NCBI RefSeq assembly: GCF_029892485.1
Contig: NZ_JARXVG010000017.1
Coordinates: forward strand, 1 to 64,000
Reading direction: 5' to 3'
Source: Variovorax boronicumulans
GTDB lineage: Bacteria; Pseudomonadota; Gammaproteobacteria; Burkholderiales; Burkholderiaceae_C
DNA: 64,000 nt
The first letter of the stretch is position 1. Each line of letters opens with the position of its first letter. Of the stretch, positions 31,254 through 47,908 are shown piece after piece. The position numbers and the translations under genes are program-made. The notes beneath the pieces are model-generated. The model worked only from the letters and a program-made list of their open reading frames with translations. It did not search any database and had not been told where the DNA came from.

Positions 31254-31727
31254 TCAGATGAACAACTGGATCGCCGGCAACGCGCGCCCGGCGTTGAGCA
31301 GATCGATGCGCTTCTGGCGGATGGCCCAGCCCGAAGGCGTCGATGGCGTGCGCACAAGGTGGTGGCGGGCAATGCCGCTCAGCAGGATCTGGGCTTCGCC
31401 GCGCGCCTCGACGTAGATGAACGGCGTGCGCAGGTGCACTTCGTCGGCCGTCTCGCTCTCGATGCGTGAAGGCTGTAGCACGTGCTGGCTGTGGCTCTCG
31501 GGATGCTGCGAATGCGCGCGCGGGCTCTTCAGGCGGTCGACGCGCAGCTGCAGCAGCAGCCGGTCTTCATAGGCCAGCGAGTTGTGCGAGAACGGATCGG
31601 CCTGCGCCGCACCCAGCAACGGCACCCAGTAGTAGCCGTCGTCAGCGAAGAGCGCCAGCCAGTCGTCGAAGCGCCGCTCGTCGAGCAAGGCCGCCTCGTG
31701 GGCGATGAAGTCGTGCGGATCGTTCAT
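31254..31727 (-). CDS. Aromatic-ring-hydroxylating dioxygenase beta subunit 2
   Basis: A 157-residue small (beta) subunit of a Rieske dioxygenase, with the cystatin/SnoaL-like fold expected for structural subunits of alpha3beta3 enzymes. It contains DFIAHEAALLDERRFDDWLALF and WVPLL at the usual places. ATG 31727 overlaps its large-subunit gene by 4 bp (ATGA). The sequence is clearly related to the other beta subunit at 41233-41721 (shared endings ALPAIQLFI and ALPAVQLFI), pointing to duplication of the whole alpha-beta pair. Confidence 0.9.
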   Translation of the reverse strand: MNDPHDFIAHEAALLDERRFDDWLALFADDGYYWVPLLGAAQADPFSHNSLAYEDRLLLQLRVDRLKSPRAHSQHPESHSQHVLQPSRIESETADEVHLRTPFIYVEARGEAQILLSGIARHHLVRTPSTPSGWAIRQKRIDLLNAGRALPAIQLFI

Positions 31728-33043
31728 GCCACGACCTCCGATGCCATCGCCTTCGCCCAGGCACGGAACTGGTTGCGCATGAGCAGCTCGTTCGTGCCGT
31801 TGGTGGTGATCGTCGATTGCGCGAGTTCGGCCGCGTCGAAGTTGCGGTGCAGGCTCACCCATTCGTTGCCACCGGCCCGCAGGCCCTGCTGGATGCTCTC
31901 GAACAGGTGCACATCGTCGTGCGCCACCACCGACATCGGCGAGAACACGAGCCGGTTGTAGCTCATTGCGCGCTCGAAGAGCAGTGCGGGCGCGCCGGCC
32001 GCGCGGAAGCTCCAGGCCTCGATCAGCGTGCGGTCGGCGGCCAGCGGACGGATCACGCGGATCGCCTGCGGCGAGCCCTTGACCGACAGGCTCGGATAGA
32101 AGACCGAGTTCTGCGGCGAGCGCTGCAGGATGTCGGCCGCGCGCTCGGCCCCGTGCGCCGCCTGCATCGCGGCCTCGTACTCGGGCAGCTGCGCATAGTT
32201 GGAGTGGATGCTGAAGTTGACGCCCAGTACGCTGTGCCCGTTGGCGAACACCCGCCCACCCATCCTGTCGAAGAACTCGTAGCCCGAGCCGAAGGGCAGG
32301 ATCTGCTCCATCGCCATCGGCTTGGGGTCGGTGGGCGCATGGCCTTCCCACAGCGCCTCGGCCGCCTTGGTGGCCGATTCGTGCGTCGACATCGGATGCA
32401 CCGTGTCGTTGATGTTCTCCAGGTACATCTTCCAGTTGCAGTGGACGATGTTGCGCAACACGCCGCCGCCCACGGCGAGCTTGCCTTCGGGCGAGCGGTC
32501 GACCATGTTGTCGATGGCGCCGAGCACTTCGCCGAAGTAGTCCTCGAACGTGGGGCCGGTGTCGGCCAGGCGCACGAACACGAAGTCGCGGTAGACCTTC
32601 ACATGCTTCACCACGGAAAGCCCCTGACCCGATTCGCAGGCCTTGAGCTGTGTGCCTTCATACCCGGCCTTCAGCGGCACGCCGAGCGGCGCGCCGTCGA
32701 GCTTGTAGGTCCACGCGTGGTACGGGCAGCGGAAGAAGCGGCCGGTGTTGCCGCTCTCGTCCGTCACCAGCTGCGTGCCCTTGTGGGCGCAGCGGTTGTA
32801 CATGACATGCACCGCGCCGTCGGGCTGCCGCACCATCAGCAGCGGCCGGCCCGCGACCTCCTGCGTCACGAAGTCGCCCGCATCCGGCACCTGGCTCGCA
32901 TGGCCGAGGAAGACCCAGGTGTTCGCGAACAGGCGCTCCTGTTCGAGCGCGAAGATCTCCTCGCTCAGGTACAGGTCGCGGTGCACGCGGTCGTCCTGCA
33001 CCAGGGCGGCGATGCGGTCGGGATGATGGCGGTAGCTGGTCAT
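31724..33043 (-). CDS. Rieske non-heme iron dioxygenase alpha subunit 2
   Basis: A 439-residue catalytic subunit. Rieske [2Fe-2S] ligands C85-x-H87 and C106-x2-H109. Mononuclear iron ligands H216 and H221, with the bridging D213 (NDTVHPMSTH). It is a close relative of the alpha subunit at 41721-43034, with the same length and spacing. No reductase adjoins it, so it probably takes electrons from the reductase at 43051-44043. It may perform a second oxygenation or accept a different auxin or indole. The substrate is inferred only. Confidence 0.93.
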   Translation of the reverse strand: MTSYRHHPDRIAALVQDDRVHRDLYLSEEIFALEQERLFANTWVFLGHASQVPDAGDFVTQEVAGRPLLMVRQPDGAVHVMYNRCAHKGTQLVTDESGNTGRFFRCPYHAWTYKLDGAPLGVPLKAGYEGTQLKACESGQGLSVVKHVKVYRDFVFVRLADTGPTFEDYFGEVLGAIDNMVDRSPEGKLAVGGGVLRNIVHCNWKMYLENINDTVHPMSTHESATKAAEALWEGHAPTDPKPMAMEQILPFGSGYEFFDRMGGRVFANGHSVLGVNFSIHSNYAQLPEYEAAMQAAHGAERAADILQRSPQNSVFYPSLSVKGSPQAIRVIRPLAADRTLIEAWSFRAAGAPALLFERAMSYNRLVFSPMSVVAHDDVHLFESIQQGLRAGGNEWVSLHRNFDAAELAQSTITTNGTNELLMRNQFRAWAKAMASEVVA

Positions 33044-33064: not shown

Positions 33065-34210
33065 TCAGGGGACCAGCTTCCACTGGCCCTTGTTCATCTG
33101 CACGATCACCACGCCGCGCTGGTCGGAGCCGTAGCGGTCGTCGGGCTTGAAGGTGTAGATGCCGTGCGTGCCCACCAGCTCCTTGGTACTCACGATGGCG
33201 TCGCGCAGTGCCGTGCGGTACTGCGGCGTGCCAGGCTCGCCTTTGGTGCGCGAGGCGGCGTCGGCCAACAGCAGGTAGGCGTCGTAGGTGTACGAGGAGA
33301 AGGCATCGGTCGGCACTGCGCCGTTGACCTTCTGGTAGGCCGCACGGAAGGCCATCGACACCTTCTTGATGGGGTTGCTGTCGGGCAACTGGTCGGCCAC
33401 GAGCACGGGGCCGCTGGGCACCTGCAGGCCTTCGATGGAGGCGCCGCCCACGCGCACGAAGTCGGCGTTGATGAGCCCGTGCGTGCCGTAGATCTTGCCC
33501 TTGTAGCCGCGCTCGGCGAGCGCGATGTAGGGCAGCGCGCCGGGCGTGCCGGAGTTGCCTGCGAACACGGCATCGGGCCGCGCCGCGACGATCTTCAGGA
33601 TCTGCCCCGCCACCGACGAATCGCTGCGCGCATAGCGCTCGTTCGCCACCACCTTGATGCCGGCGGCGGCCGTGCTCTTCATCAGCGAGTCGTAGGCGAG
33701 GTCGCCCAGCGCGTCGGAGAAGCCGATGAAGGCCACCGTCTTCACGCCGGACTTCTGCATGCGATCCACCACGCCCGCCACCATGAGCGGAAAGGGCTGC
33801 GATACCGTCACCGTCCACGCGCCCTCGGGGCCGGCGATGGTCACCGGCGTGGGCGAGATCAGCGGCGTGTTCAGCTCACGCGCCACAGAGGCGATGGCCA
33901 TCGCACCCGGCACACCCGAGGTGCCGATGAGCACATCGACCTTGTCTTCCGTCACCAGCTTGCGGGCATTGCGGCCGGCGGTCGTGGGGTCGGAGGCATC
34001 GTCGAGCACGATCAGCTGGACCTTGCGGCCACCGATTTCCGGGTGCTCGGCGATGGCTGCGCGAATGCCCTTTTCGTAGGGCACACCCAGTGCGGCGACA
34101 GGCCCCGACAGCGAGCTGATGAAGCCGATCTTCAGATCAGCCGCCATGGCCTGTGCAGCTGCCAGTGCGACGGCGGTGAGGCCGAGAATGCGGACCAGTT
34201 TCTTTTTCAT
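33065..34210 (-). CDS. ABC transporter substrate-binding protein (HAAT family) 2
   Basis: A 381-residue periplasmic binding protein with signal peptide (MKKKLVRILG, hydrophobic LTAVALAAAQAMA, cleavage before ADLKIG). It is a close paralogue of the two other binding proteins in the cluster (LKIGFISSLSGPVAALGVPYEKG). It lies between the third binding protein and the second dioxygenase pair. It may deliver a different indole-like ligand to the single LivH/LivMG/LivF channel. The ATG is confirmed by the basic start and cleavage pattern. Confidence 0.92.
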   Translation of the reverse strand: MKKKLVRILGLTAVALAAAQAMAADLKIGFISSLSGPVAALGVPYEKGIRAAIAEHPEIGGRKVQLIVLDDASDPTTAGRNARKLVTEDKVDVLIGTSGVPGAMAIASVARELNTPLISPTPVTIAGPEGAWTVTVSQPFPLMVAGVVDRMQKSGVKTVAFIGFSDALGDLAYDSLMKSTAAAGIKVVANERYARSDSSVAGQILKIVAARPDAVFAGNSGTPGALPYIALAERGYKGKIYGTHGLINADFVRVGGASIEGLQVPSGPVLVADQLPDSNPIKKVSMAFRAAYQKVNGAVPTDAFSSYTYDAYLLLADAASRTKGEPGTPQYRTALRDAIVSTKELVGTHGIYTFKPDDRYGSDQRGVVIVQMNKGQWKLVP

Positions 34211-34244
34211 CGAGGTTGCTCCAGCGTGTGTTGTGTGCGTTGCA

Positions 34245-35414
34245 TCAGGGAACCAGCTTCCACTGGCCCTTTTCAAGCTTCACGACCACACGCGAGCGCT
34301 CGTCCGATCCATAGCGATCGGTCGGCTTGAAGTTGTAGACGCTGTGCGTGCCCACCAGCTCCTTGGTGCTGACGATGGCGTCGCGCAGCGCGAGGCGGAA
34401 CTGCGGCGTGCCCGGCTCGGCCTTGGTGGCGAGTGCGCGCTGGGCAGCGTCCAGGTACAGCAGCCAGGCATCGAAGGTGTAGGCCGAGAAGGCATCGGTC
34501 GGCGGCGCGCCGTTGGCCTTCTGGTAGGCCGCGCGGAAGTCCATCGAGACCTTGCGGATCGGGTTGTCGTTCGACAACTGCTCGGCGACGATCACCGGCC
34601 CGGTCGGCGCGAGCATGCCTTCGACGGCTGCACCGCCCACGCGCACGAAGTCGGGGTTGATGAGCGCATGCATGCCGTAGATCTGGCCCTTGTAGCCACG
34701 CTCGGCGAGCGCCAGGTACGGCAACGCGCCGGGTGTGCCGGAGGTGCCGGTGATCACCGCATCGGGGCGCAGCGCCACGATCTTGAGCACCTGGCCGGTC
34801 ACCGACGAATCGGCGCGCGCATAGCGCTCGTTCGACACGATCTTGATGCCCGCTGGCTCCGCGCTCTTCTGCAGCGCGTCGTACACCAGGTCGCCCCAGG
34901 CGTCTGAGAAGCCGATGTAGCCGACCGTCTTCACGCCCGACTTCTTCATGCGCTCGACCACTGCGCTCACCATCAGCGGCGCGGGTTGCGGCAGCGTGAC
35001 CATCCACGCGCCCTCTTCGCCCGGCAGGTTGGCGTTGGCGATGGAGATCAGCGGCGTCTTCGTTTCGCGCGCCACGCCGGCGATGGCCAATGCGCCGGGC
35101 GAGCCTGCGGTGCCGATGATGACGTCGACCTTGTCCTCGTCGATCATCTTGCGGGCATTGCGCGCGGCCGTGGACGGGTCGGAGGCATCGTCGAGCTGCA
35201 CCAGCTGGATCTTGCGGCCGCCCAGGTCCGCCTTGTAGGCGAGCGCGGCCTTCATGCCCTTCTCGTAGGGAATGCCCAGCGACGACACCGGCCCCGAGAG
35301 CGACGTGATGAAACCGACCTTGAGATCGGCGGCCCACGCGCCAGCCACGGCGGTCAGGGCGCCGAGGCCCACGGCAATGCTTGCGAGGGCACGGAATCGG
35401 TTCAGGACTTTCAT
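34245..35414 (-). CDS. ABC transporter substrate-binding protein (HAAT family) 3
   Basis: A 389-residue periplasmic binding protein with signal peptide (MKVLNRFR, hydrophobic ALASIAVGLGALTAVAGAWA, cleavage before ADLKVG). It is a paralogue of the binding proteins at 33065 and 30050. Three copies served by one permease set suggest a range of related ligands, or differing affinity. It follows the SDR gene at 35462 by 47 bp on the same strand. Confidence 0.92.
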   Translation of the reverse strand: MKVLNRFRALASIAVGLGALTAVAGAWAADLKVGFITSLSGPVSSLGIPYEKGMKAALAYKADLGGRKIQLVQLDDASDPSTAARNARKMIDEDKVDVIIGTAGSPGALAIAGVARETKTPLISIANANLPGEEGAWMVTLPQPAPLMVSAVVERMKKSGVKTVGYIGFSDAWGDLVYDALQKSAEPAGIKIVSNERYARADSSVTGQVLKIVALRPDAVITGTSGTPGALPYLALAERGYKGQIYGMHALINPDFVRVGGAAVEGMLAPTGPVIVAEQLSNDNPIRKVSMDFRAAYQKANGAPPTDAFSAYTFDAWLLYLDAAQRALATKAEPGTPQFRLALRDAIVSTKELVGTHSVYNFKPTDRYGSDERSRVVVKLEKGQWKLVP

Positions 35415-35461
35415 GGCGATGCTCCAGAGGTGATGTTTTTTGAACGGAACGGGAATAAAAA

Positions 35462-36196
35462 CTAGAGCGCCAGGCTACCGACGCTGGTGCCGCCGCAGAC
35501 ATAGAGCACCTGGCCGGTGACGAAGCTGTTGTCGGGGTCGGCGAAGAAGCGCACGGCGCGTGCCACGTCGGCCGATTCGCCCAGGCGCTTGACCGGCACG
35601 GAGGCCGCGAGCGCGCGTTCCTTCTCGCTGCCGGCTTCGACGACGTCGTAGAACATGTCGGTGCGGATGGGCCCGGGCGCCACCACATTCACCGTGATGC
35701 CGTCCGCTGCGAGTTCCAGCGCCCAGGTGCGCGCCATGCCCAGCATGCCGGCTTTGGTGGCGGAATAGCTGGTGCGGGTGGCGAGGCCCAGCGCCGCGCG
35801 CGACGACAGCAGCACGACGCGGCCGAAACGCTGTGCACGCATGGCGGGCAATGCACCCTGCACGAGCTGGATCGCGCAGCCCAGGTGCAGGTCGACCAAT
35901 GCATCGAGGTCGTCGAGCTTCACTTCAGGCAGCAACGCGGCGCGGATGACGCCCGCGTTGTGGACGATGGTGGTCGGCGCAAAACGCTCGACCAGCTCGT
36001 GCACCGCTTCGCCCGTGTCGGCGCGGTCGCTCAGGTCGACCTCCAGGCTGTGCAGCTTCGGGTGGTCGATCTCGGCCTTGCGGCGCGCGAGCGAGATCAC
36101 CTCGTAGCCCTGCGCCAGCAGGTCCTCGCAGATCGCCTTGCCGATGCCGGCGCTGCCGCCGGTGACCGCCGCCACCTTCGGTGCCGCGCCGGTCAT
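35462..36196 (-). CDS. SDR-family dehydrogenase, candidate dihydrodiol or hydroxyindoline oxidase
   Basis: A 244-residue classical SDR. TGGSAGIG is at 12-19, HNAG at 79-82, with catalytic S131/S132, Y144 and K148, all intact. ATG 36196 is used because the in-frame upstream sequence is a palindromic repeat element rather than protein. In the cluster it is well placed to oxidise the product of the Rieske dioxygenase (2,3-dihydroxyindoline-3-acetate to dioxindole-3-acetate). That role is an inference from context. It could instead act on another hydroxylated intermediate. Confidence 0.88.
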   Translation of the reverse strand: MTGAAPKVAAVTGGSAGIGKAICEDLLAQGYEVISLARRKAEIDHPKLHSLEVDLSDRADTGEAVHELVERFAPTTIVHNAGVIRAALLPEVKLDDLDALVDLHLGCAIQLVQGALPAMRAQRFGRVVLLSSRAALGLATRTSYSATKAGMLGMARTWALELAADGITVNVVAPGPIRTDMFYDVVEAGSEKERALAASVPVKRLGESADVARAVRFFADPDNSFVTGQVLYVCGGTSVGSLAL

Positions 36197-36216
36197 GCGC
36201 GCTCCCCTTGTCTTGC

Positions 36217-36315
36217 TCCCTCTCCCGCCTGCGGGAGAGGGTTGGGGTGAGGGTGTCCCCTGCGGCCTTCGCAAGCACCCTCATCCCCCGCCTTCTCCCG
36301 CACGCGGGAGAAGGA
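36217..36315. repeat. REP-like palindromic repeat pair inside the operon
   Basis: Two imperfect copies in opposite orientation. CCCTCTCCCGC (36218-36228)/GCGGGAGAGGG (36231-36241) continues to GTTGGGGTGAGGGTG. The second, CCTTCTCCCGC (36291-36301)/GCGGGAGAAGG (36304-36314), is preceded by the reverse sequence CACCCTCATCCCC. This GGGGTGAGGG-type element is the common intergenic repeat of many proteobacteria. It fills the largest clear gap in the catabolic operon and may alter mRNA stability there. Confidence 0.85.
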
Positions 36316-36341
36316 GCCAAAGCTAATGCGGCAGCAGCGAG

Positions 36342-37154
36342 TCATAGCCAAGCTCCCACCAAAGCCAGCACGCGCAACGGACTCCCGCTGCCCTTCTCGA
36401 TCTTCAACGGCGGACAGATGAGCACCGCGCCAGAAGGCGGCAGCAGATCGAGATTGGCCAGGCACTGCAACCCATAGCGCCCCGCCCCATGCATGTAGTA
36501 GTGGCACGGATACGGCGGCCGCAGGTGATAGCCCTGCCCTGCATCGGTGCCGATGGCTTCGGAGCCGAAGCCCAGCACATCGCGCTGCTCCACCAGGAAG
36601 CGCACGGCTTCTGTGCTCGGGCCGGGCGTGTGCTGGCCGGTCTCGTCGAAGTTCTGATAAGCCTCGGGGTCGCTGCGCTTGGACCAGTCGGTGCGCATCA
36701 GCACCCACGCGCCCTTTGGAATGCGGCCGTGCGCGGCCTCGTAGCGCTCGATGTCGGCCACGCTCAGCAGGTAGTCGTCGTTGCCCTGCACCTCGGCCGA
36801 GCAGTCGATCACGCAGGCCGGCGCGACGAAGTTCTGTACCGGAATCGTGTCTACCGAGTTGTTCGGCAGGTCGCGTCCCGAGATCCAGTGGATCGGCGCG
36901 TCGAAGTGCGTGCCGGTGTGCTCGCCGCAAGAGAAGTTGTTCCAGTACCAGCCCGGGCCGCGCTCGTCGTACTTCGACACTTCCTCGATGCGGAAGGGCC
37001 AGCACTGGCCCATCTCGGGTGGCAGCGCGATCTGCGGGAACTCGGGGGTGAGCGTCTGCGTGAGGTCGATCACGCGGATGCGGCCGCTCGCCATGGCGGT
37101 CACCAGGCCGCCGAGGATTTCGGCGGCGGACATCAGTTCGGTTGTCGTGGTCAT
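36342..37154 (-). CDS. Cyclase-family metallohydrolase, probable isatin hydrolase
   Basis: A 270-residue member of the cyclase/kynurenine formamidase family. Metal site H79-T-G-T-H83-F-D85-A-P-x-H89, matching the H-x3-H-x-D manganese ligands of isatin hydrolase. Isatin hydrolases cleave isatin to isatinate in indole-3-acetate breakdown. The surrounding IAA-type cluster supports that role, but a formamidase or other ring-opening hydrolase cannot be excluded from sequence alone. It follows the DUF35-SDR fusion gene by 17 bp on the same strand. Confidence 0.8.
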   Translation of the reverse strand: MTTTTELMSAAEILGGLVTAMASGRIRVIDLTQTLTPEFPQIALPPEMGQCWPFRIEEVSKYDERGPGWYWNNFSCGEHTGTHFDAPIHWISGRDLPNNSVDTIPVQNFVAPACVIDCSAEVQGNDDYLLSVADIERYEAAHGRIPKGAWVLMRTDWSKRSDPEAYQNFDETGQHTPGPSTEAVRFLVEQRDVLGFGSEAIGTDAGQGYHLRPPYPCHYYMHGAGRYGLQCLANLDLLPPSGAVLICPPLKIEKGSGSPLRVLALVGAWL

Positions 37155-37171
37155 TCGTGTGGCTCCTGTTC

Positions 37172-38425
37172 TCAGCCGCCTGCGGCCAGCTCGCGTTCAA
37201 GCACCTTGGGGTTGTCGCGCCAGCGCTCCAGCCATTCCTGTGCGACGTCGCCTGGGTAGACGTCTTCGACGCCATCGCGCAGTGCCTTCACGATGGCGTT
37301 GGCCAAGGCGGTGGGCGCCAGCTTGGGCGGGGGCGTGTGCTGGTTCCATTCGTCGTCGATGGGGCCGGGGAACACGTTGATCACGCGAATGCCAGCTGGA
37401 CGCATCTCGGCGCGCAGGCACTGCGCCAGCGAATGCGCCGCCGCCTTCGAGGCGCTGAAGGTGCCATGCGGCGGGAAGTTGCTGAGCGCATAGATCGACA
37501 GCAGGTTGACCCACGCCGTCGCGCCCGTCGCACCATCGGCCGAGCGGCCCTTGAGCGCGGGGCCGAACTCCTGCGCCAGGCGCAGCAGGCCGAAGTAGTT
37601 GATGTCCATCTCGGCCTTGGCCACATCCGTGCCGCGGCGTGCGCCGATGCCGAAGGTGCGGTGCACCTCGGCGTTGTTGATCACGATGTCGACCTTGCCG
37701 CCGATGGAGCCCGCGAGCTCGGTCACCTGGCGGCCGTTGGTCAGGTCCAGCGGCACCAGCGTCACCTGCGGCAGCGCCGAGATGTCGTCCAGGCCGTCGC
37801 CCATCTTCTTCCAGGGCTCGGCGTGGCCGACCCAGACGATGTCGGCGCCGGCCTTCACCAGCGCGCGCACGATGGCCTGGCCGGTCTCGGTCTTGCCGTC
37901 GGTCACCAGCGCCTTGCGGAACTTGGGGTCGCTGGTCATTTCACGCAGCATCTTGTCGTCGGCCATATGGGCACTCCCTTCATTCGGAAAACCAATGAGA
38001 ACGGCCTGGCCCGCGCGGTCGAGCCGGGCGCCGACACGCACGCGGGTGGGCGCTTCGCCGACCTCGCCATGCAGGTGGACCATGAGCGTCGGGCCGGCAT
38101 CGAGGTGCACCAGCCCCAGCCGCCAGGGCAGCCGTTCGCGGAAGAACAGGTCGTTGCTGTGGTGCAGCGTGGTGCTGCCGAGCAGTTCGCCTTCGCCGCT
38201 CTGCGCGCGCCAACGCAACGCGGCCGAGAGGCACTTGTGGCAGACCTCGCGCGGCGGGTACTGCACGGTGCCGCAGTCCTCGCAGGTCTGCAGTTCGAAG
38301 CGACCCTCGGCGGCAGCGGCCGTGAGGCCGAGCGCCACGCGGCCGCGTGCGCCGGGCGGCAGGTTCATCTGCCGGGTGCGCAGCACCGGGTTCTTGCGCG
38401 GGGGGCGCATCATCGGCATCGTCAT
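37172..38425 (-). CDS. Zn-ribbon/OB-fold (DUF35) domain fused to a degenerate SDR domain
   Basis: A 417-residue two-domain protein in one frame. Residues 30-150 form a DUF35-type rubredoxin-like Zn ribbon (C48-x2-C51, C62-x2-C65) plus an OB fold, as in partners of thiolase-like proteins such as ChsH2. Residues 165-417 are an SDR domain, but the cofactor loop is altered (VTDGKTETG instead of TGxxxGxG) and the catalytic Tyr position in GTFSASK is Phe (F323, with K327). The domain may be non-catalytic. It overlaps the thiolase-like gene by 4 bp, so the two products are probably a complex. Confidence 0.85.
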   Translation of the reverse strand: MTMPMMRPPRKNPVLRTRQMNLPPGARGRVALGLTAAAAEGRFELQTCEDCGTVQYPPREVCHKCLSAALRWRAQSGEGELLGSTTLHHSNDLFFRERLPWRLGLVHLDAGPTLMVHLHGEVGEAPTRVRVGARLDRAGQAVLIGFPNEGSAHMADDKMLREMTSDPKFRKALVTDGKTETGQAIVRALVKAGADIVWVGHAEPWKKMGDGLDDISALPQVTLVPLDLTNGRQVTELAGSIGGKVDIVINNAEVHRTFGIGARRGTDVAKAEMDINYFGLLRLAQEFGPALKGRSADGATGATAWVNLLSIYALSNFPPHGTFSASKAAAHSLAQCLRAEMRPAGIRVINVFPGPIDDEWNQHTPPPKLAPTALANAIVKALRDGVEDVYPGDVAQEWLERWRDNPKVLERELAAGG

Positions 38426-39594
38426 GCGGGTCTCCCGAGGATGACGGCACCTGTGCACAGGCAGCGGTCGTAGGTCACCATGCCGAAGCCAGCGACGAGG
38501 CCCAGTTGCGCATCGGGCACCGTGCGCTTGTCGGCTTGATCCGTCAGTTGGCGGATCGCCTCGACCATGCCAAGGAAGCCGCCCGCCGCACCCGCCTGCC
38601 CTGCCGACAGTTGTCCGCCACTCGTGTTGTTCGGAAAGCTGCCGTCGAAGGTCATGGTGTGCGACTGCACGAAGGCCGGGCCCTCGCCTTTTTCGCAGAA
38701 GCCCAGGTCTTCGAATTGCATCATCGCGATGACGGGGTAGTCGTCGTAGGTCTGCACGAAATCGAGCGCGTCGGGCTGGATGCCGGCCTGCGCGTAGAGG
38801 TCGTCGCGGTCCTTGCGCCAACCGCCCTGCACCATCACCGGGTCTTCGGCGTAGGCGTTGTGGCGTTCGATGGCGCCGCGGATCACCACGTGCGCCAGGC
38901 CCAGGTCGCGTGCGCGTTCCTCGCTCATCACCAGGAAAGCCTCAGCACCGGCGCAAGGCATCACGCAGTCGAAGAGATGGATGGGGTCGGAGATGGGGCG
39001 CGCGGCCATGTACTCCTCCAGCGTCAGCGCCTTCTTGAACATCGCGTTCGGATTGCCGAGCGCGTTGGTGCGCTGGTCCACGCAGATGCGGCCGAAGTCC
39101 TCGCGCGTGGCGCCGTAGATGCGCATGTAGTTGGCGGTGATGAACGCGAAGATCGAGTTCGGCCCGCCCGAGCCGTAGGGGTAGCTCGCATCGCGCGCGA
39201 AGTTGCTGAAGCTGCCGAGCGTCTGGCGGAATGAGTCGACGTGGTTGGTGTCGGCGCCCACGCAGGCGACGATGTCCGCATCGCCCGCCTGCACCGCACG
39301 CGCGGCACGGCGCAGGCACATCACGCCCGAGGCTCCTCCCGTGGGCACATGGTCTAGCCAGCGCGGCGAAAGGCCCAGGTGCTGCGTGACGCCCACGGCC
39401 GTGTCGGGCGCAAGCGAGAAGCTGCTGAGGCACAGGCCGTCGATCTGTTCCTTCGGCACGCCGCTGGCCTTGACCAGTGCCTCGACGGCCTGGCCGATGA
39501 ACCAGTGCGCGGTGCGCGTGGAGTAGCGCACGTAGGGCACTGTGACCGGAACGGCCACCGCGACGCCTTCGTAGGAGAGTCGATTGCGGGTCAT
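38422..39594 (-). CDS. Thiolase-superfamily protein lacking catalytic Cys/His (aldolase partner type)
   Basis: A 390-residue thiolase fold of the lipid-transfer/SCP2 type. The nucleophile motif is GGASG (86-90) with no Cys. The GHP-type His is replaced in AGQAGAAGG (Q333), and N322-N-T-S-G-G and the CLCTG end remain. Ltp2-type proteins with the same losses, together with a DUF35 partner, are acyl-CoA retro-aldolases in steroid side-chain breakdown. Here the overlapping DUF35 gene suggests C-C cleavage of a hydroxyacyl-CoA, possibly dioxindole-3-acetyl-CoA to isatin and acetyl-CoA. A transfer or condensation role is not excluded. Confidence 0.85.
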   Translation of the reverse strand: MTRNRLSYEGVAVAVPVTVPYVRYSTRTAHWFIGQAVEALVKASGVPKEQIDGLCLSSFSLAPDTAVGVTQHLGLSPRWLDHVPTGGASGVMCLRRAARAVQAGDADIVACVGADTNHVDSFRQTLGSFSNFARDASYPYGSGGPNSIFAFITANYMRIYGATREDFGRICVDQRTNALGNPNAMFKKALTLEEYMAARPISDPIHLFDCVMPCAGAEAFLVMSEERARDLGLAHVVIRGAIERHNAYAEDPVMVQGGWRKDRDDLYAQAGIQPDALDFVQTYDDYPVIAMMQFEDLGFCEKGEGPAFVQSHTMTFDGSFPNNTSGGQLSAGQAGAAGGFLGMVEAIRQLTDQADKRTVPDAQLGLVAGFGMVTYDRCLCTGAVILGRPA

Positions 39595-41225
39595 GCCTGT
39601 CCCGCCTGTCTCTTCTTCATCGCGCGTGTGTCGATGCAGTGGCCCTGCCCCGGCAGCGACTGCGCCATCTCGCGCAGCTGTCCGCGCTGAATCTTCTGCG
39701 AGGGCGTGAGCGGCAGTGCGTCGACGAAGGCGACGTAGCCTGGGGCCTTGTAGTAAGCCAACTGCGCGAGCGCATGCTGGACGATGCTGGCTGCGAACTG
39801 CTCGCGCTGCGATACATCGGTGTCTTCGCGCATCACGATGCAGGCCAGCACTTCGTCGCCGCGCACCGCATCGGGCGTGGCGGCCACGGCCGATGTCTTC
39901 ACGGCCGGGTGCTGGTTGAGCACGCTCTCGACCTCGACGGCCGAGATGTTCTCTCCGCTGCGGCGGATCACGTTCTTCTTGCGGTCAACGAAGAAGAAGT
40001 TGCCCTCGGCATCGCGGCACACCAGGTCGCCGGTGTGGAACCAGCCGTCGGCCCAGGCTTCGCGCGTGGCTTCCTCGTCCTTCAGGTAGCCGGAGAAGAA
40101 GTAGCGCTTGGGGTCGCTGCCTGCCGAGCGCACGAGCAGTTCGCCGGGTGCATCGGTGCCGACATCGCTGCCGTCCTCGCCGACGAGGCGGATCTGCACG
40201 AAGTCTTCCTGGCGTCCGAAGCAGCTCGTGCCCACGAGACGCGGCTCGCGGTTGGCCATGATGCAGGCGGCCGCGCCGGTCTCGGTCATGGCCCATGCCT
40301 CGACCAGCGGGAAGCCGAAGCGCTCTTCGAAAGGCACGTGATTCTTGCGGTCCACACCGGCGCCGAAGCCCCAGCGGATTGCATGGTCGCGGTCGGCGGC
40401 CGATGCGGGCGCCGACAACAGCATCGCGGGCATCACGCCAAGGTAATGCACGATGGTCGCACCGCTTTCGCGCGCGCTCGCCAGCCAAGTCTTCGGATGA
40501 AAGCGATCAAGCTGCACCAGGCAGCCGCCCGCTACCAGCACCACCATGGTGGAGAACGCCATCGCGTTCATGTGGTTGAGCGGCAGCGGCGTGATGACGC
40601 GCTCGGTGTCGGGGCGGATGCTGCACACGCCGTCGAGTGCCGCGTACCACTCGCCCGCGCGCAGGAAGTACGCGTTGCTCAGGATGCAACCCTTGGGGCG
40701 CCCGGTGGTGCCCGAGGTGTAGAGCAGGCCGCATTCGGTATCAACACCGACGGGCTCGTGGGCGCGTGGTGCGGCGGTCATCGCTTCAGGCACCGCGTCG
40801 CCGGGGCCCATGGTCTCGAATGGCACGCCGGCTTGGGCTGCGGCAGCGTGCAGGTCGGCGGCGCGCTCCGGCAGCGTGACCGCCAGGCCGATCTCGCTGT
40901 GGCCGATGAGATAGACCAGTTCGGCCGAACGCATCTCGGCGTTGATCGGCACCACGCTCACGCCCAGCGCATTGAGCGCGAACCAGTGAAAGAGAAAGGC
41001 AGGCCGGTTCTCCAGCAGCAGGCCGACGCGGTGGCCGTGCCCGTAGCCGGCTTGCGCATAGGCCGCTCGCAAGCGCCCGACCTCTGTGGCAGCCTCACTC
41101 CAACGAATGGCGCCGGCCGCGATGCCATAGGCAGCAGCGGTCACCGATTCGGTGAACAGGAACTCGGCCTGCGGCGTGCGCTTGGCAGTCGCCGCGAAGA
41201 CTTGATGGACGGTGGTGTGTGGCAT
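39591..41225 (-). CDS. Acyl-CoA ligase, ANL superfamily
   Basis: A 544-residue adenylate-forming enzyme: P-loop YTSGTTGRPKG at 169-179, WAMTETG region, the hinge WFHTGDLVCRDAEG, and catalytic Lys in TPSQKIQRG. It lies between the beta subunit of dioxygenase 1 (7-bp gap) and the thiolase-like gene (4-bp overlap). That order suggests it activates the oxygenated indole-acetate so that the thiolase-like/DUF35 pair can cleave it. A caiC-like ligase at 24866 is the second ligase. Confidence 0.9.
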   Translation of the reverse strand: MPHTTVHQVFAATAKRTPQAEFLFTESVTAAAYGIAAGAIRWSEAATEVGRLRAAYAQAGYGHGHRVGLLLENRPAFLFHWFALNALGVSVVPINAEMRSAELVYLIGHSEIGLAVTLPERAADLHAAAAQAGVPFETMGPGDAVPEAMTAAPRAHEPVGVDTECGLLYTSGTTGRPKGCILSNAYFLRAGEWYAALDGVCSIRPDTERVITPLPLNHMNAMAFSTMVVLVAGGCLVQLDRFHPKTWLASARESGATIVHYLGVMPAMLLSAPASAADRDHAIRWGFGAGVDRKNHVPFEERFGFPLVEAWAMTETGAAACIMANREPRLVGTSCFGRQEDFVQIRLVGEDGSDVGTDAPGELLVRSAGSDPKRYFFSGYLKDEEATREAWADGWFHTGDLVCRDAEGNFFFVDRKKNVIRRSGENISAVEVESVLNQHPAVKTSAVAATPDAVRGDEVLACIVMREDTDVSQREQFAASIVQHALAQLAYYKAPGYVAFVDALPLTPSQKIQRGQLREMAQSLPGQGHCIDTRAMKKRQAGQA

Positions 41226-41232
41226 CACGTCC

Positions 41233-41721
41233 CTAGATGAAAAGCTGCACGGCCGGAAGCGCCGCATCGCAGTTGAGCAGGTTGACGCGCTTGAGCGTCA
41301 TGCGCAGCGCGCCGTCCTGCACTGTGAGGTAATGAAAGAAAGTGCCCACGTAGAACTGCAGTTCGTCGCCCTGCGACTCGGTGTAATGGAACCCGGTGCG
41401 CACCACGAAGCGATTGCCCTCGGCGTCGAAGGTCTCGACCACCGGCACCTGCAGCAGGTGATGGCAGCGGCTCGGCGGCTGCTGCGAAAACGCGCGCGGG
41501 CTCTTCAGGCGCTCGATGCGCAGCTCGCGCAGCAGCTTGTCTTCGTAGAGGTGCGAGGTGTGGTTGAGGCCGTCTTCCTGGTCGGGCACGAGCGGCACCC
41601 AGTAGAAGGCGTCGTCGGTGAAGAGCGCGTTCCACTCTTCGTAGCGACGGGTGTCGAGCAGGTGCGCTTCGTTCACCACGAAGTCGATCAGGTCCTGACG
41701 CGTGATGTCGGTGCCACTCAT
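41233..41721 (-). CDS. iadE: Rieske dioxygenase beta subunit 1 (IadE-like)
   Basis: A 162-residue small subunit, cystatin-like fold, with DLIDFVVNEAHLLDTRRYEEWNALF and WVPLV at the expected places. Its start shares one base with the alpha-subunit stop (TGATG). The gene order oxidoreductase-A, oxidoreductase-B, reductase, alpha, beta agrees with the lettering of the Variovorax iad genes (A, B, C, D, E), in which iadDE is reported as the pair needed for IAA degradation. The symbol rests on this context, not on an alignment. Confidence 0.85.
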   Translation of the reverse strand: MSGTDITRQDLIDFVVNEAHLLDTRRYEEWNALFTDDAFYWVPLVPDQEDGLNHTSHLYEDKLLRELRIERLKSPRAFSQQPPSRCHHLLQVPVVETFDAEGNRFVVRTGFHYTESQGDELQFYVGTFFHYLTVQDGALRMTLKRVNLLNCDAALPAVQLFI

Positions 41722-43034
41722 CACATGGTCTCCGTCATGCGCTTGACCCAACTGCGGTACTGATTGCGCATCGGCAGCTCGTTGGTGCCGCCGGTGGTGA
41801 TCTCGCCGCCCTTCAGTTCCGACGCGTCGTAGTCGCGGTGCAGGCTCACCCACTCGTTGCCGCTCGCATGCAGACCGGCCTGCATGCCGCGATAGGCCTG
41901 CAGGTCGTCATGCCCCACCACCGAGAACGGCGAGTTGATGAGCCGGTTGTACATGGTGGTGCGCTGCAGCAGCTCGGGCGGCGCGCCCTTCAGGCGAAAG
42001 GTCCAGCTCTCGATCAGCGTCTTGTCGGCCGAGATCGGCTTCACCACGCGAATCGCCTGGATCGCGCCCTTGATCGTGAGGTTCGGGTAGTACACCGTGT
42101 TGTGCCGTGCCATGCCTAGGATCTGCGCGGTCTTCTCCTCGCCATAGCGCGCCTTCATCGCGTCGTCGTATGCAGGGATCGCCTTGTACTTGCTGTGGAT
42201 GCTGAAGTGCACGCCCGTGAAGCTGTGGCCGTGGTCGTAGGTGCGGATGCCCATGTCCTCGAAGAACTTGTAGTCGGACATGAAGGGCACGAACTGCTCG
42301 ACCGCCATCGGCTTGGGTTCGTCGGCGGGCTTGTCGGCCCACATGCGCTTGGCGGTGCCGGCCGACGATTCGTGCGCCACCATCGGGTGCATGGTGTCGT
42401 TGAGGTTCTCCACGAACATCTTCCAGTTGCACTGGTGCATGAAGCGCAGGCACCCGCCGGCGATTTCGAGCTCACCTTCGGGCGAGCGGTCGGCCATGTT
42501 GTCGATGGAGCTGAGCGAATCGCCGAAGTACTCGTCGAAGTCAGGGCCCGCGTCGTTGATCTTCACGAAGATGAAACCGCGGTGGCTGCGCACATGCTTC
42601 AACGTCGTCAGGCCCTTGGCCGACTCGCATTCGTGCAGCGCGGTGTTCTCGTAGCCGGTCTTCAACGGAATCGCCAGCAGCGAACCATCGGTCTTGAAGG
42701 TCCACGCGTGGTACGGGCAGCGAAAGAACTTTCCGGTGTTGCCGCAGGGCGCGCTCACCAGGCGCGAGCCCTTGTGGGCGCAGCGGTTCATCATCGCGCG
42801 CACGCTGCCGTCGGTGTGGCGCACCACGATCAGCGGGCGGCCGGCGATCTCGTTGCTGATCCAGTCGCCGGGTTTCGGCAGTTGGCTCTCGTGGCCGACG
42901 TAGTTCCAGGTGTTGGCGAAGAAGTGCTCCTGTTCCAGCTCGAAGAGTTCCTGGCTGGTGTACAGGTCGCGGTGCACGCGGTCGTTCTGCACGAGTGCGC
43001 GCACGGCATCGGGGTTGTCTCTGTACGAAGGCAT
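41721..43034 (-). CDS. iadD: Rieske non-heme iron dioxygenase alpha subunit 1 (IadD-like)
   Basis: A 437-residue catalytic subunit. Rieske ligands C85, H87, C106, H109; catalytic iron ligands H216 and H221 with bridging D213. It is a close relative of the alpha subunit at 31724. It follows the reductase by 16 bp and overlaps the beta subunit by 1 bp. The enzyme would insert both oxygen atoms of O2 into the pyrrole ring of indole-3-acetate, the first committed step of iad-type auxin breakdown. The assignment to IadD rests on gene order and neighbours. Confidence 0.88.
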   Translation of the reverse strand: MPSYRDNPDAVRALVQNDRVHRDLYTSQELFELEQEHFFANTWNYVGHESQLPKPGDWISNEIAGRPLIVVRHTDGSVRAMMNRCAHKGSRLVSAPCGNTGKFFRCPYHAWTFKTDGSLLAIPLKTGYENTALHECESAKGLTTLKHVRSHRGFIFVKINDAGPDFDEYFGDSLSSIDNMADRSPEGELEIAGGCLRFMHQCNWKMFVENLNDTMHPMVAHESSAGTAKRMWADKPADEPKPMAVEQFVPFMSDYKFFEDMGIRTYDHGHSFTGVHFSIHSKYKAIPAYDDAMKARYGEEKTAQILGMARHNTVYYPNLTIKGAIQAIRVVKPISADKTLIESWTFRLKGAPPELLQRTTMYNRLINSPFSVVGHDDLQAYRGMQAGLHASGNEWVSLHRDYDASELKGGEITTGGTNELPMRNQYRSWVKRMTETM

Positions 43035-43050
43035 GGTTCTGGTATCTCCT

Positions 43051-44043
43051 TCAGATGTCGAGCACCAGGCGCGCACCCTTGGCGCGCGAGATGCATATCT
43101 GCATGACATTGCCAGCCGCCTTCTCGCGGGCGGTGAGCACGTAGTCGCGGTGTTCGATCTCGCCCTCGAGCACCGGCACGGCGCACACGCCGCATTCGCC
43201 GCGCTTGCAGTCGAACATCGGGTCGCAGCCGTTGTCGATGAGGCAATCGAGGATGCTCTGGTCGGCCGCGACGGTGAAGCGCTGGCCCGACTGGGCGAGT
43301 TCGACCTCGAAGGGCTGGTCGCCTTCTTCGGCGACCGGTTCGGTGAAGAGTTCGAAGTGCACGCGGTCGTGGTCCCAGCCGCGTGCCTGGGTGCGGGCAA
43401 GCACCGCGTCGAGCATGACCTTGGGGCCGCAGACGTAGAGGCGGTCGCCGGCAGGTACGTCGTCGAGCAGTGCGTCGATGTCCAGCGGCGCGCCGGCCTC
43501 GGCGTCGGTGTGCACGCGCAGGTCGTCGCCGAGCAGCGCCTTGAGTTCGGGCAGGAAAGCCATCAGCTCGCGGCTGCGGCCGGCGTAGTGCATGCGCACC
43601 GGTGCTTCTTCGGCGCGGCGGCGTGCGGCCATGGTGGCGAGCGGGGTGACGCCGATGCCGCCGGCCACCAGCACCGAGCCGCCGGGGCCGGTGTGCAGCG
43701 GGAAGTCGTTCTTCGGCGCCTCGATGGCGAGCGTGTCGCCTTCGTTCAACCCTTCGTGCATGAAGCGCGAGCCGCCGCGGCCTTCGGCTTCCTTGCGTAC
43801 GGCGATCACGTATTCCGTCGGCGCATTGGTGGCGTTGCGCGCGGTCGCAAAGTTGATCAGCGAGTAGTGTCGCCAGTCGGTCTTGCCATCGGCCAGCAAC
43901 ACCTGCACGCGGATGTGGGCGCCGGCCGCGAAGCCGGGCAACGGCCGACCGTCTTCGCCGCGCAGGCGCAGCATGCGGATCAGCGGATTGAGTTGGCGCG
44001 CTTCGGCGACACGAAGCTGGAGCGTGGCGGTGGGAGCGGTCAT
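43051..44043 (-). CDS. iadC: Phthalate dioxygenase reductase-type flavin/2Fe-2S reductase (IadC-like)
   Basis: A 330-residue electron donor. Flavin-binding RHYSL (58-62), NAD(P)H-binding GGIGVTP (128-134) and CGP (205-207), then a C-terminal plant-type [2Fe-2S] ferredoxin with C279, C284, C287 and C317. The domain order (flavin, NAD, ferredoxin) is that of phthalate and vanillate dioxygenase reductases. It is the only such reductase in the cluster, so it probably feeds both Rieske enzymes. The symbol is inferred from its position next to iadD. Confidence 0.88.
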   Translation of the reverse strand: MTAPTATLQLRVAEARQLNPLIRMLRLRGEDGRPLPGFAAGAHIRVQVLLADGKTDWRHYSLINFATARNATNAPTEYVIAVRKEAEGRGGSRFMHEGLNEGDTLAIEAPKNDFPLHTGPGGSVLVAGGIGVTPLATMAARRRAEEAPVRMHYAGRSRELMAFLPELKALLGDDLRVHTDAEAGAPLDIDALLDDVPAGDRLYVCGPKVMLDAVLARTQARGWDHDRVHFELFTEPVAEEGDQPFEVELAQSGQRFTVAADQSILDCLIDNGCDPMFDCKRGECGVCAVPVLEGEIEHRDYVLTAREKAAGNVMQICISRAKGARLVLDI

Positions 44044-44061
44044 CGTGCGTCCGTTGTCTCT

Positions 44062-45573
44062 TCAGGCCAGCGCGTGCTGCGCCAGCGCGGCTTGCAGCTT
44101 GTGGCCGTGTTCATCGGCGAGCGCCGCGTCGCGCAACTCGCGCAAGGTAGCGGGAGCGAGTTGTGCACCGGCGCGCTCGACCGCGCGCATCACGGTGTCG
44201 TAGTTGCGGATGCCGCGCTCGTGCGTGTCGCTGTAGCCCTTGACGAGGCGCTGGCACTGCGCGAGTTCCACCGCCAGTTCGGGGTTGCGCTGCGCGGTCG
44301 CGGCGATGCGCTGCAGCCATTCCTCGATGCGGCGGTTTTCTTCCGCGTAGCGCATCGTCGAACGGCGCCAGCGCTTCATGGCAGCGACCGTGCGCAGCAT
44401 CAGGTAGCCGCGCAGCGAGCTGGTCTGGATCACGCGGCCGTGTTGCGTGAAGCGCTCGACGATCTTCTTCGGCAACGTGGAACCCATCAGCCAACGGCCG
44501 ATGCCACCTGGCAGCGTCTCGCAGATTTCCTGCAGGCGCGGGTGCATGTATTCGTTGATCGCAAGCACCTGGCCGGGTTGCACGCGGGCTTCGCCGCGCA
44601 CGCGCTCGAAGCGGGTGGCGCGGGTTTTGAGGGCCGCCACGCGGGCGGTGTCTTCGTAGGACATCCAGAGCGCGAGGTGGCGTGCGGTCTCGCGCAGCAG
44701 GCGGTGGTCGTCGTTGCTGGGCAATGCAGCGATCGTGGCCATGCGGTCTAGGTACAGGCCGGCATACGCCACGTCCTGGTAGTCGATGAGGCGACGCACC
44801 CCTTCGAGCAAGAAGTCTTGTGCGGCCAGCGGAAAGTCGTGTTGCACGCGTTCGACCAGCGCGCGCACGGCCGGGTGGCGCGGTTGCGGCATTGGCGGGG
44901 CCACTGCCGGTTCCGGCGGCGTCTCGCCGTCGTCGCCGGCCTGTGCGCGAGCGAATGCGCCGCCGAAGGCCTTCAGGCTGGGCTTGATGCCCACGCCGCC
45001 GCGCTCGATGGTCGCCTCGAACTGCGCACGGCTGAACGGCAGCACGCCAGACCCCGCGAGCGCACCGAAGAGCACGGCGCTGATCACGCTGCCCGATGCT
45101 TCGGCGGCTTGCGCCATGTCGAAGCGGATGAAGCGCTTGGCGGCCTTGGCCGTGTGCGCGAGCAGTTGCGCGCTGTCGACACGCCCATCGCCCAGTGCGC
45201 TCTTCTCGGCAATGGAGAACACGCGGTGCGTGGAGGCGATGAGTGTGGTGCGGTCGTTCGTGACGAGGCCGCGCTGCACCGCGCGGCCGGCTTCCATGAG
45301 TTCCGATGCGAGCACCACATCGACATCGCCCGGCAAGGGCATCAATGCCAGCACAGGGTGTCCGCCATCGGCGTCGGCTTGCGCGATCGGATACAGCTCG
45401 ACGTAGTAAATGGTCGCGCCGGTGCGCTGGGCCACGCCCGGCACCGAAGTGGTCTGCGCGACATAACCATTCGCCTCGCCCATGTCCACGATCCAGTCGG
45501 CCAGCACGCCGCCGCCCTCCCCGCCCATGGCGAGGATCGCGATCTTGATCGGTTGTGCCTTGATGTTCGTCAT
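44062..45573 (-). CDS. Indolepyruvate oxidoreductase subunit beta family protein, long form
   Basis: A 503-residue protein. The N-terminal 200 residues are the 2-oxoacid:acceptor oxidoreductase gamma/IorB fold (IAILAMGGEGGGVLADWI, SVPGVAQRTGATIYYVE). The remaining 300 residues are a helical C-terminal domain (DUF6537-type) found only in the long family, with no motif I can interpret. ATG 45573, 4 bp after the IorA stop, is preferred over an upstream GTG that would overlap it. It works with the alpha subunit next to it. Confidence 0.85.
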   Translation of the reverse strand: MTNIKAQPIKIAILAMGGEGGGVLADWIVDMGEANGYVAQTTSVPGVAQRTGATIYYVELYPIAQADADGGHPVLALMPLPGDVDVVLASELMEAGRAVQRGLVTNDRTTLIASTHRVFSIAEKSALGDGRVDSAQLLAHTAKAAKRFIRFDMAQAAEASGSVISAVLFGALAGSGVLPFSRAQFEATIERGGVGIKPSLKAFGGAFARAQAGDDGETPPEPAVAPPMPQPRHPAVRALVERVQHDFPLAAQDFLLEGVRRLIDYQDVAYAGLYLDRMATIAALPSNDDHRLLRETARHLALWMSYEDTARVAALKTRATRFERVRGEARVQPGQVLAINEYMHPRLQEICETLPGGIGRWLMGSTLPKKIVERFTQHGRVIQTSSLRGYLMLRTVAAMKRWRRSTMRYAEENRRIEEWLQRIAATAQRNPELAVELAQCQRLVKGYSDTHERGIRNYDTVMRAVERAGAQLAPATLRELRDAALADEHGHKLQAALAQHALA

Positions 45574-45577
45574 CGCT

Positions 45578-47764: not shown

Positions 47765-47822
47765 GTGGGTCCTTCTTCTTTCTCGTGGGAGGATGCGCTT
47801 CAGGTGCCACATCACGCTTTCT

Positions 47823-47855
47823 ATAATGTTGACAAATGAATGTATCCACAATCAT
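47823..47855 (-). promoter_or_regulatory. iorA promoter with MarR-type operator
   Basis: On the minus strand TTGTGG (47851-47846), 17 bp, CATTAT (47828-47823) form a promoter for the long operon. An inverted repeat ATGAATGT-ATCC-ACAATCAT (47836-47855, one mismatch pair) covers the -35 and spacer. A MarR gene begins 54 bp away on the other strand. The plus-strand TTGACA at 47829-47834 may be part of the divergent promoter. Confidence 0.6.
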
Positions 47856-47908
47856 GTATTACCCTAAACATGCAAGCAGCGTGCCCGCGGCAACCTTGAG
47901 GTGCCTTC

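Follow-up and report, generated by a model that had tools for sequence, protein, structure and literature searches.

A degenerate dehydrogenase fold beside a thiolase fold without its nucleophile cysteine: a putative DUF35-dependent retro-aldolase in the Variovorax auxin locus

How does an auxin-degrading bacterium cut the side chain from the oxindole ring, and why would it keep, at this very step, a dehydrogenase fold that seems to have lost its cofactor site? The question is raised by a stretch of 64,000 nucleotides from Variovorax boronicumulans (contig NZ_JARXVG010000017.1, positions 1 to 64,000; hereafter the window), in which one frame of 417 residues joins a DUF35 zinc ribbon and OB fold to a short-chain dehydrogenase/reductase (SDR) half. 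In the auxin (iad) locus of Variovorax paradoxus CL14, the genes follow one another in the order iadC, D, E, F, G, H, I, J, K2 (PMC12633357, PMC10374108). The neighbors in the window, all on one strand, reproduce this iadC-K2 order, and the gene in question is therefore iadH; the closest named loci belong to Variovorax, and a genome of the same genus carries an IadH homolog with 98% identity. The conversion of dioxindole-3-acetic acid (DOAA) to isatin is the C-C cleavage of the iad pathway, and its enzyme has so far been assigned by annotation only: a 2025 preprint lists IadG as a ketothiolase and IadH as an alcohol dehydrogenase (PMC12633357). Here, we propose instead that IadG and IadH form a DUF35-dependent retro-aldolase of the thiolase fold that would split the coenzyme A (CoA) thioester of DOAA into isatin and acetyl-CoA, with the SDR half serving as a non-redox module. 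We put the probability of this reading at roughly two in three; it builds on sequence signatures, conservation, selection, and gene context, from which we infer the complex, the reaction, and the role of the SDR half. The features on which the argument leans are:

37172..38425, minus strand: iadH, DUF35 zinc ribbon and OB fold (residues 36-136) followed by a degenerate SDR half (residues about 165-417)
38018..38320, minus strand: DUF35 half of IadH (residues 36-136), with the zinc cysteines 48, 51, 62, and 65 in 101 of 101 aligned rows
37175..37933, minus strand: pseudo-SDR half of IadH (residues 165-417), with TDGKTETG for TGxxxGxG, NNAE for NNAG, and F323 for Tyr
38422..39594, minus strand: iadG, thiolase fold without the nucleophile Cys (PTGGASG, with Gly87 in its place) and with YDDY at 283-286; proposed DUF35-dependent retro-aldolase
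36342..37154, minus strand: iadI, a PF04199 protein, isatin hydrolase by similarity (PDB 5nna, E 2.6e-111)
39591..41267, minus strand: iadF, AMP-forming acyl-CoA ligase, proposed product dioxindole-3-acetyl-CoA

A thiolase fold and its DUF35 partner

Translation of the iadH frame (38425-37172, minus strand) meets no internal stop, and Pfam finds zf-ChsH2 at residues 36-70 (E 2.3e-13), OB_ChsH2_C at 72-136 (2.6e-13), and adh_short at 172-362 (6.8e-23). An earlier sequence-only reading of this DNA had described a single 417-residue DUF35-SDR frame, with cysteines at 48, 51, 62, and 65, a phenylalanine (F323) at the SDR tyrosine position, and a 4-bp overlap with a thiolase-like gene; all of these details hold, the overlap being with the 3' end of iadG. 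The gene is single-copy in its genome: the 16 next-best matches to IadH, with E values of 6.8e-10 or higher and 24-39% identity, are much weaker and cover almost exclusively the SDR half.

What does the overlapping gene encode? Canonical thiolases carry a nucleophile Cys; in IadG, Gly87 of PTGGASG is aligned to it, and none of the 99 homolog rows that hold this segment has a Cys there, so that IadG lacks the mark of a canonical thiolase. The YDDY motif is present in 100 of 100 IadG rows (the 101st, L095_0, was set aside as another thiolase). In the same alignment, BbsB of anaerobic toluene degradation and the Pyrococcus thiolase 7yvy have Cys at the nucleophile place together with HDAF. In Sal of Comamonas testosteroni (CtSal; PDB 9myr), a bile-acid side-chain retro-aldolase, Gly replaces the Cys, Tyr302 and Cys304 of a YDCY motif are essential, and a Gln347/Gln352 pair is present; in Ltp2, the motif reads YDHF (PMC12329534). 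Sal is the best PDB sequence match of IadG (9myr_A, 1.2e-50) and Ltp2 of Thermomonospora curvata the third (6ok1_A, 9.3e-41); the two best PDB matches of the IadH DUF35 half, 6ok1_B (1.9e-6) and 9myr_B (2.8e-5), are the DUF35 chains of the Ltp2 and Sal complexes. Fold comparison of the IadG model gives Sal 43.7, Ltp2 41.8, 4u4e 41.1, and BbsB 39.1 (VIA Z-scores), the alignments under the IadG and IadH models being shallow (33 and 35 rows). A fold closest to Sal and Ltp2, an encoded DUF35 partner, a missing Cys, and the Tyr of a YDxx motif are among the features that characterize a DUF35-dependent retro-aldolase, and with all four IadG resembles such an enzyme more than a thiolase. The sequence-only reading had cast the overlapping gene as a partner of IadH, a role that these signatures support.

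IadG-IadH shares with Sal and its DUF35-MaoC partner Shy a thiolase-fold aldolase lacking the nucleophile Cys, a YDxY tyrosine as the base, a Gln pair (Gln347/Gln352 of Sal align with Gln328/Gln333 of IadG), a DUF35 partner protein that bears a second, fused domain, and, as proposed, a beta-hydroxyacyl-CoA substrate that yields acetyl-CoA. Unlike Sal, in which the third motif residue is an essential Cys, IadG has Asp; unlike Shy, in which the DUF35 domain has three Cys and one His and the fused domain is an active hydratase, IadH has four Cys and a degenerate SDR, and the proposed substrate is an oxindole. Ltp2-ChsH2 (PDB 6ok1) resembles IadG-IadH in fold, DUF35 pairing, and C4 zinc site, and its substrate, a steroid C17 alcohol, is likewise a beta-hydroxyacyl-CoA; it differs in having YDHF in place of YDDY and an acid, Tyr344, in place of Gln333. 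The BbsAB/BbsCD system (BbsB, PDB 7pxp) also sets a DUF35-bound thiolase fold beside an SDR pair with a reputed inactive subunit, but BbsB keeps its Cys and HDAF, and the Bbs pseudo-SDR is a separate subunit next to an active one.

The identity of the next enzyme constrains the chemistry. IadI matches the solved isatin hydrolase 5nna_A over residues 12-266 of 270 (374.6 bits) and looks like an isatin hydrolase; the step upstream of it should therefore yield isatin. Thiolase chemistry requires a 3-keto group, whereas C3 of DOAA bears a tertiary alcohol, so that DOAA is not thiolase-cleavable. Retro-aldol cleavage of DOAA-CoA yields isatin plus acetyl-CoA with no redox cofactor, and the balance is redox neutral: DOAA (C10H9NO4) equals isatin (C8H5NO2) plus acetic acid (C2H4O2). 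The acyl-CoA or indole pathway suggested by the sequence-only reading agrees with this picture.

In the proposed mechanism, IadF would convert DOAA to its CoA thioester, and the DUF35 half of IadH would hold and shape IadG; Tyr283 of YDDY would deprotonate the tertiary C3 hydroxyl, and the C3-CH2 bond would split to give isatin and the enolate of acetyl-CoA; the enolate would be reprotonated to acetyl-CoA, perhaps by Asp285, whose part as the general acid is a guess; IadI would hydrolyze isatin to isatinate, and the SDR half would be retained for a structural or docking role or as a pocket. Published mutants agree with this scheme: deletion of iadF, G, H, or I significantly lowers anthranilate and in each case raises C10H9NO4 (DOAA; PMC12633357). 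The preprint also reports C8H7NO3 and C7H7NO (PMC12633357), which we read as the formulas of isatinate and 2-aminobenzaldehyde and which fit isatin hydrolysis; isatin, dioxindole, and isatinic acid were found in CL14 cultures (PMC9613470). Among the iad proteins tested for binding of indole-3-acetic acid, only IadK2 and IadD bound it (PMC10374108).

The SDR half of IadH

If the proposed cleavage needs no redox cofactor, is the C-terminal half of IadH a dehydrogenase at all? Among 105 aligned homolog rows, 101 keep the DUF35 half and fall into 34 clusters at 90% identity; the four dropped are three rows without it and a C-terminal fragment of locus L091. The 101 rows contain duplicates (the gene of the window is both L001 and L102), and the broken L091 frame is represented by its main piece. 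This half has the Rossmann fold of SDRs and lacks their TGxxxGxG, NNAG, and Ser-Tyr-Lys signatures. In TGxxxGxG, the first Gly is replaced by Asp or Asn in all 101 rows and the second is kept in one; the Gly of NNAG is also kept in a single row, being otherwise Glu (94), Asp (5), or Ala (1). The altered cofactor loop that the sequence-only reading saw in one protein is a trait of the whole family. Two controls behave as SDRs should: in IadJ, an ordinary SDR of the same named loci (77 of 80 usable), the three TGxxxGIG glycines, NAG, Tyr, and Lys are all intact in 77 of 77, and three SDR-half relatives without a DUF35 half retain the glycines, NNAG, Tyr, and Lys.

The catalytic Tyr has a different history. 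Position 323 is F in 85 rows, Y in 9, W in 4, H in 2, and A in 1 (by cluster: F 19, Y 8, W 4, H 2, A 1). That the Tyr has been lost is true of this protein, in which it is Phe, and is not a trait of the family; homologs that keep it, which the sequence-only reading had named as evidence against itself, do occur in part of the family. The non-redox conclusion survives because in the rows with Tyr, too, the NAD(P) motif is missing its first Gly and NNAG its only Gly. A tree of the 34 clusters and the three DUF35-less rows, built without the columns in question, is weakly resolved, with several branches long or open; on it, position 323 changed at least 10 times (outgroup rows included) and position 327 at least 6 times, as compared to two changes at position 176, five at 253, and sixteen at 180. 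The change from Tyr to Phe was accordingly rejected as the key change of the family: the Tyr drifts, while the loss of the first Gly seems to predate the spread of the family. In L106, L107, and L108, from other classes of the phylum, the Tyr has become His, His, and Ala and the Lys Cys, His, and Ala, and the SDR site has degenerated further.

The nearest relatives of the SDR half are 5u4s of Burkholderia cenocepacia and the NCBIfam family NF006118 (PRK08264 group; 181.9 bits, below the cut-off of 279). Unlike IadH, 5u4s, whose structure contains NADP, has intact glycines (TGADRGLG) and NNAG, yet has Leu at the Tyr position; Tyr loss alone therefore says little. The IadH model is fairly confident (pLDDT 85.0), and its SDR half superimposes on 5u4s with Z 33.1 and a root-mean-square deviation of 1.9 over 237 residues; a PDB fold search with IadH returned mainly SDRs (model residues 163-417), and the evidence on the DUF35 half comes from sequence. 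The SDR half probably descends from an NADP-dependent SDR and would have lost dinucleotide binding; judged by its sequence, it is not a redox enzyme, which is what the sequence-only reading had suggested.

Does a lost cofactor site mean decay? Across the named loci, the SDR half has a median pairwise ratio of nonsynonymous to synonymous substitution rates (dN/dS) of 0.112; the DUF35 half has 0.171, IadG 0.146, IadI 0.138, IadJ 0.198, and IadF 0.196 (1,200 random pairs drawn, which are not independent, and 876 to 1,162 usable per gene). For this comparison and for the IadJ control, matches covering <90% of the query were dropped, leaving, of 80 loci, 79 for IadH, 77 for IadG, 77 for IadJ, 79 for IadI, and 71 for IadF. 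The SDR half is under strong purifying selection and is not decaying.

Gene content and rival explanations

Which genes travel with iadH? Presence was scored in 94 loci as a tblastn match over >40% of the query; contig ends truncate some of the loci, and all were retrieved via IadH, so that its own presence is no finding. iadI is present in 94, iadG in 93, and iadD and iadE in 83; the only locus without iadG, L063, has just 105 bases ahead of iadH. iadG, H, and I are adjacent in 92 of 93 loci, the exception being L100, in which iadI lies 3.2 kb away. Searched whole, 16 IadH-bearing genomes yield no IadJ at E ≤ 1e-45 in 8 and no IadD at E ≤ 1e-60 in 3.

How, then, would DOAA be made where the oxygenase is missing? 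In Alcaligenaceae bacterium CGII-47 (L092, a 13.5-kb stretch), an acyl-CoA-dehydrogenase-fold protein, a Pfam-less protein, an SDR, and a flavin reductase are encoded ahead of iadG-H-I. The descriptions of IacA, B, E, and G match this set, and DOAA is the reported product of IacA and IacE (PMC7225977); the methods of PMC9613470 mention hybrid iac/iad clusters. Genome G352 carries, in one 19-kb stretch with iadG-H-I-K2, a CoA ligase and homologs of the L092 candidates for IacA, B, E, and G (55.8, 67.5, 65.0, and 54.7%), and neither IadD (E ≤ 1e-60) nor IadJ (E ≤ 1e-45) was found anywhere in this genome; L092 shows the same swap within its 13.5 kb. The names given to these iac-type genes rest on published descriptions and not on named Iac sequences. 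Two DOAA-making routes seem to feed one constant G-H-I module. Two independent iac swaps are not claimed: L092 and G352 (L010) share one region of the weakly resolved tree. No IacA-like gene was found in L097, where the stretch is cut soon after iadH; G758 and G647, both with G-H-I, have neither an IadD nor an IacA homolog at the thresholds used. Beside G-H-I in G758 (L115, 2268-8848) lie genes for a 795-residue FAD_binding_3 and Oxidored_FMN protein, a CoA ligase, and an ECH/3HCDH protein, a set reminiscent of the 2-aminobenzoyl-CoA monooxygenase/reductase route.

Several observations weigh against a retro-aldolase with a non-redox SDR half. In IadH, Ser310 is S in 99 and Lys327 is K in 93 of 101 rows, and altered SDR motifs can still bind NAD(P) in some families. 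iadF is present in 88 of the 94 loci only, some of which are cut, and the Z-scores of IadG against aldolases and true thiolases are close together. The known general acids are not conserved, IadG having Asp285 for Cys304 of Sal and Gln333 for Tyr344 of Ltp2; replacement of Sal Cys304 with Ala, Ser, or His abolished activity in each case (PMC12329534). Finally, the iadI mutant accumulates C8H7NO2, the formula of dioxindole (PMC12633357), whereas a retro-aldolase predicts isatin, C8H5NO2; for dioxindole to appear, isatin would have to be reduced in a side reaction or the pathway would have to include a reductase, and C8H7NO2 is tentatively taken here as reduced isatin.

The assignment of the preprint turns this last point to advantage: with IadF, an active alcohol dehydrogenase (IadH) and a ketothiolase (IadG) would remove the side chain reductively to give dioxindole, which would explain the compound that builds up without iadI, agrees with the loss of anthranilate upon deletion of iadF, G, or H (PMC12633357), and sits well with the mostly kept Ser310 and Lys327 and with the nine rows that have Tyr. 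This account is nonetheless improbable: the dehydrogenase would have to work without the first Gly of its NAD(P) motif, gone from every IadH row and kept with the rest of the motifs in every IadJ, and with Tyr and Lys positions that change again and again on the tree, and the thiolase would have to cleave a tertiary alcohol without its Cys. Might the SDR half instead be the inactive subunit of a pair with an active SDR, IadJ, much as BbsC, which we take to be the inactive one of BbsCD, pairs with BbsD beside a BbsAB-like DUF35-thiolase? Inactive pseudoenzyme subunits of a heterotetrameric SDR figure in the title of the BbsCD paper (as cited in PMC10818641), and iadJ is close by in 81 of the 94 loci (>40% identity). 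However, half of the 16 genomes searched lack an IadJ relative at E ≤ 1e-45, which makes IadJ an unlikely obligate partner (though another SDR could serve); the preprint puts IadJ before IadF (PMC12633357); and the Cys of BbsB is missing from IadG. The pseudo-SDR appears to be independent of IadJ because G-H-I also occurs with iac-type genes and without IadJ; we consider the pairing very doubtful.

A functionless passenger of the gene fusion would also show a lost cofactor motif and drifting catalytic residues. It would not show a dN/dS below those of the DUF35 half, IadG, IadI, IadJ, and IadF, and on this ground the passenger was rejected, its chances being slim indeed; that no examined locus has shed the SDR half is a weak argument, the loci having been retrieved by whole-protein matches. 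What, then, could be selected for? In the retro-aldolase reading, the pseudo-SDR may act as a scaffold for the complex, as a lid on the pocket, as a binding site for isatin, or as a docking surface for IadI. A finer and tentative form of this reading makes the old substrate/cofactor cleft a pocket for oxindole/isatin or CoA, from which isatin is handed to IadI. W360 and Q362, which by sequence lie near the former substrate loop, and R294, D297, and G298 in an insert are invariant in 35 sequences, with other residues or a gap in 5u4s, and iadI adjoins in nearly every locus; against this, Shy-Sal, the closest complex, showed no significant channeling (PMC12329534), which cautions against assuming it in IadG-IadH. 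It is equally tentative that IadG-IadH might represent a third kind of DUF35-dependent retro-aldolase, with YDDY, Asp as a possible acid, and an oxindole substrate, in which the pocket or dock of a former dehydrogenase passes isatin to IadI.

Other genes of the window and spread of the fusion

The remaining genes of the locus are:

35462..36196, minus strand: iadJ, ordinary SDR with intact motifs, start set at an internal ATG
41233..41721, minus strand: iadE, ring-hydroxylating oxygenase small subunit
41721..43034, minus strand: iadD, Rieske oxygenase large subunit, start uncertain (ATG near 43034 or 43109)
43051..44043, minus strand: iadC, reductase
34245..35414, minus strand: iadK2, solute-binding protein, named by gene order (compare PMC12633357)
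44062-45597, minus strand: iadB, POR and DUF6537 protein (Pfam)
45578-47851, minus strand: iadA, thiamine diphosphate (TPP)-enzyme protein

The iadB/iadA pair (44062-47851, minus strand) resembles indolepyruvate ferredoxin oxidoreductase; isatinate being a 2-oxo acid, IadA/IadB could decarboxylate it oxidatively towards anthranilate. A second Rieske oxygenase large subunit is encoded downstream of iadK2 (31724-33043, minus strand). The frame at 47864-49420 has no Pfam match and was not used further. A promoter and terminator scan of 34000-50000 was uninformative, with no promoter-like sites and 4 terminator-like sites vs. 9.0 expected.

Is the fusion real, and how common is it? The sequence-only reading had allowed that it might result from a sequencing error; this, or any frameshift artifact, is ruled out, the same fusion being found in homologs from the order, the phylum, and the named loci. 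Within the order, 12 of 399 genomes carry it (13 matches; own genome counted), as do the 80 named loci retained from 442 candidates; in a phylum sample of 398 genomes, 11 have a match and 8 the fusion (own genome and G350 counted), the other 3 having the SDR half only. PF01796 has matches in 25 of 200 genomes, and among the 30 loci retrieved the SDR half was matched in the frame of the window alone; match rows lacking a retrieved locus stayed outside this comparison, and one of them (G505:C54) is an IadH found in the phylum search. The DUF35-SDR fusion thus looks rare, not unique. DUF35 partners had been said usually to stand alone, which is not always so: Shy joins DUF35 to a MaoC hydratase (PMC12329534), and DUF35-Rossmann fusions were listed already in 2010 (PMC2954200).

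Some loci deviate from this layout. In L152 (G093), a frame matching the SDR half of IadH (1.4e-13) is followed directly by a DUF35-containing gene, so that the parts are adjacent and unfused. In L111, an SDR-half relative with intact motifs lies in a single open frame of 503 residues behind another sequence, which may be of the HpcH/HpaI aldolase type. In L091 (2360-3612; a metagenome-assembled genome, Variovorax sp. YR752), the iadH frame is apparently broken near the 3' end, with the C-terminal piece in another frame, perhaps through an assembly error. L123 and L124 (G175; estimated 89% complete, 6% contaminated) hold two iadG-H-I sets on separate contigs, one beside a TRAP transporter.

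How much of this is new? The iad locus itself and the DUF35-Rossmann fusions (PMC2954200) were known. Three points are new as far as could be found: IadG is read as an aldolase with a third type of motif, the cofactor motif of IadH is seen to be lost across its family, and the two proteins are assigned to the conversion of DOAA to isatin. None of the three, and no retro-aldol role for iadG or iadH, is stated in the literature searched (IadG/IadH, DOAA-to-isatin, DUF35 with SDR), which included few subscription journals and no supplements. The available text of the iad-locus papers (PMC9613470, PMC10374108, PMC12633357) contains no DUF35, aldolase, or pseudo-SDR reading, and the names iadF, G, H, I, L, and M are absent from the main text of PMC9613470.

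The iad route lets Variovorax shield roots from excess auxin, and its step labeled thiolase plus alcohol dehydrogenase is probably neither. The retro-aldolase reading swaps two annotation-based roles for one cofactor-free step, testable with two purified proteins; if true, it would add aromatic heterocycles to the steroids on which thiolase-fold retro-aldolases act. IadH offers a clean case of a dehydrogenase fold that is held under strong selection after the loss of its cofactor site.

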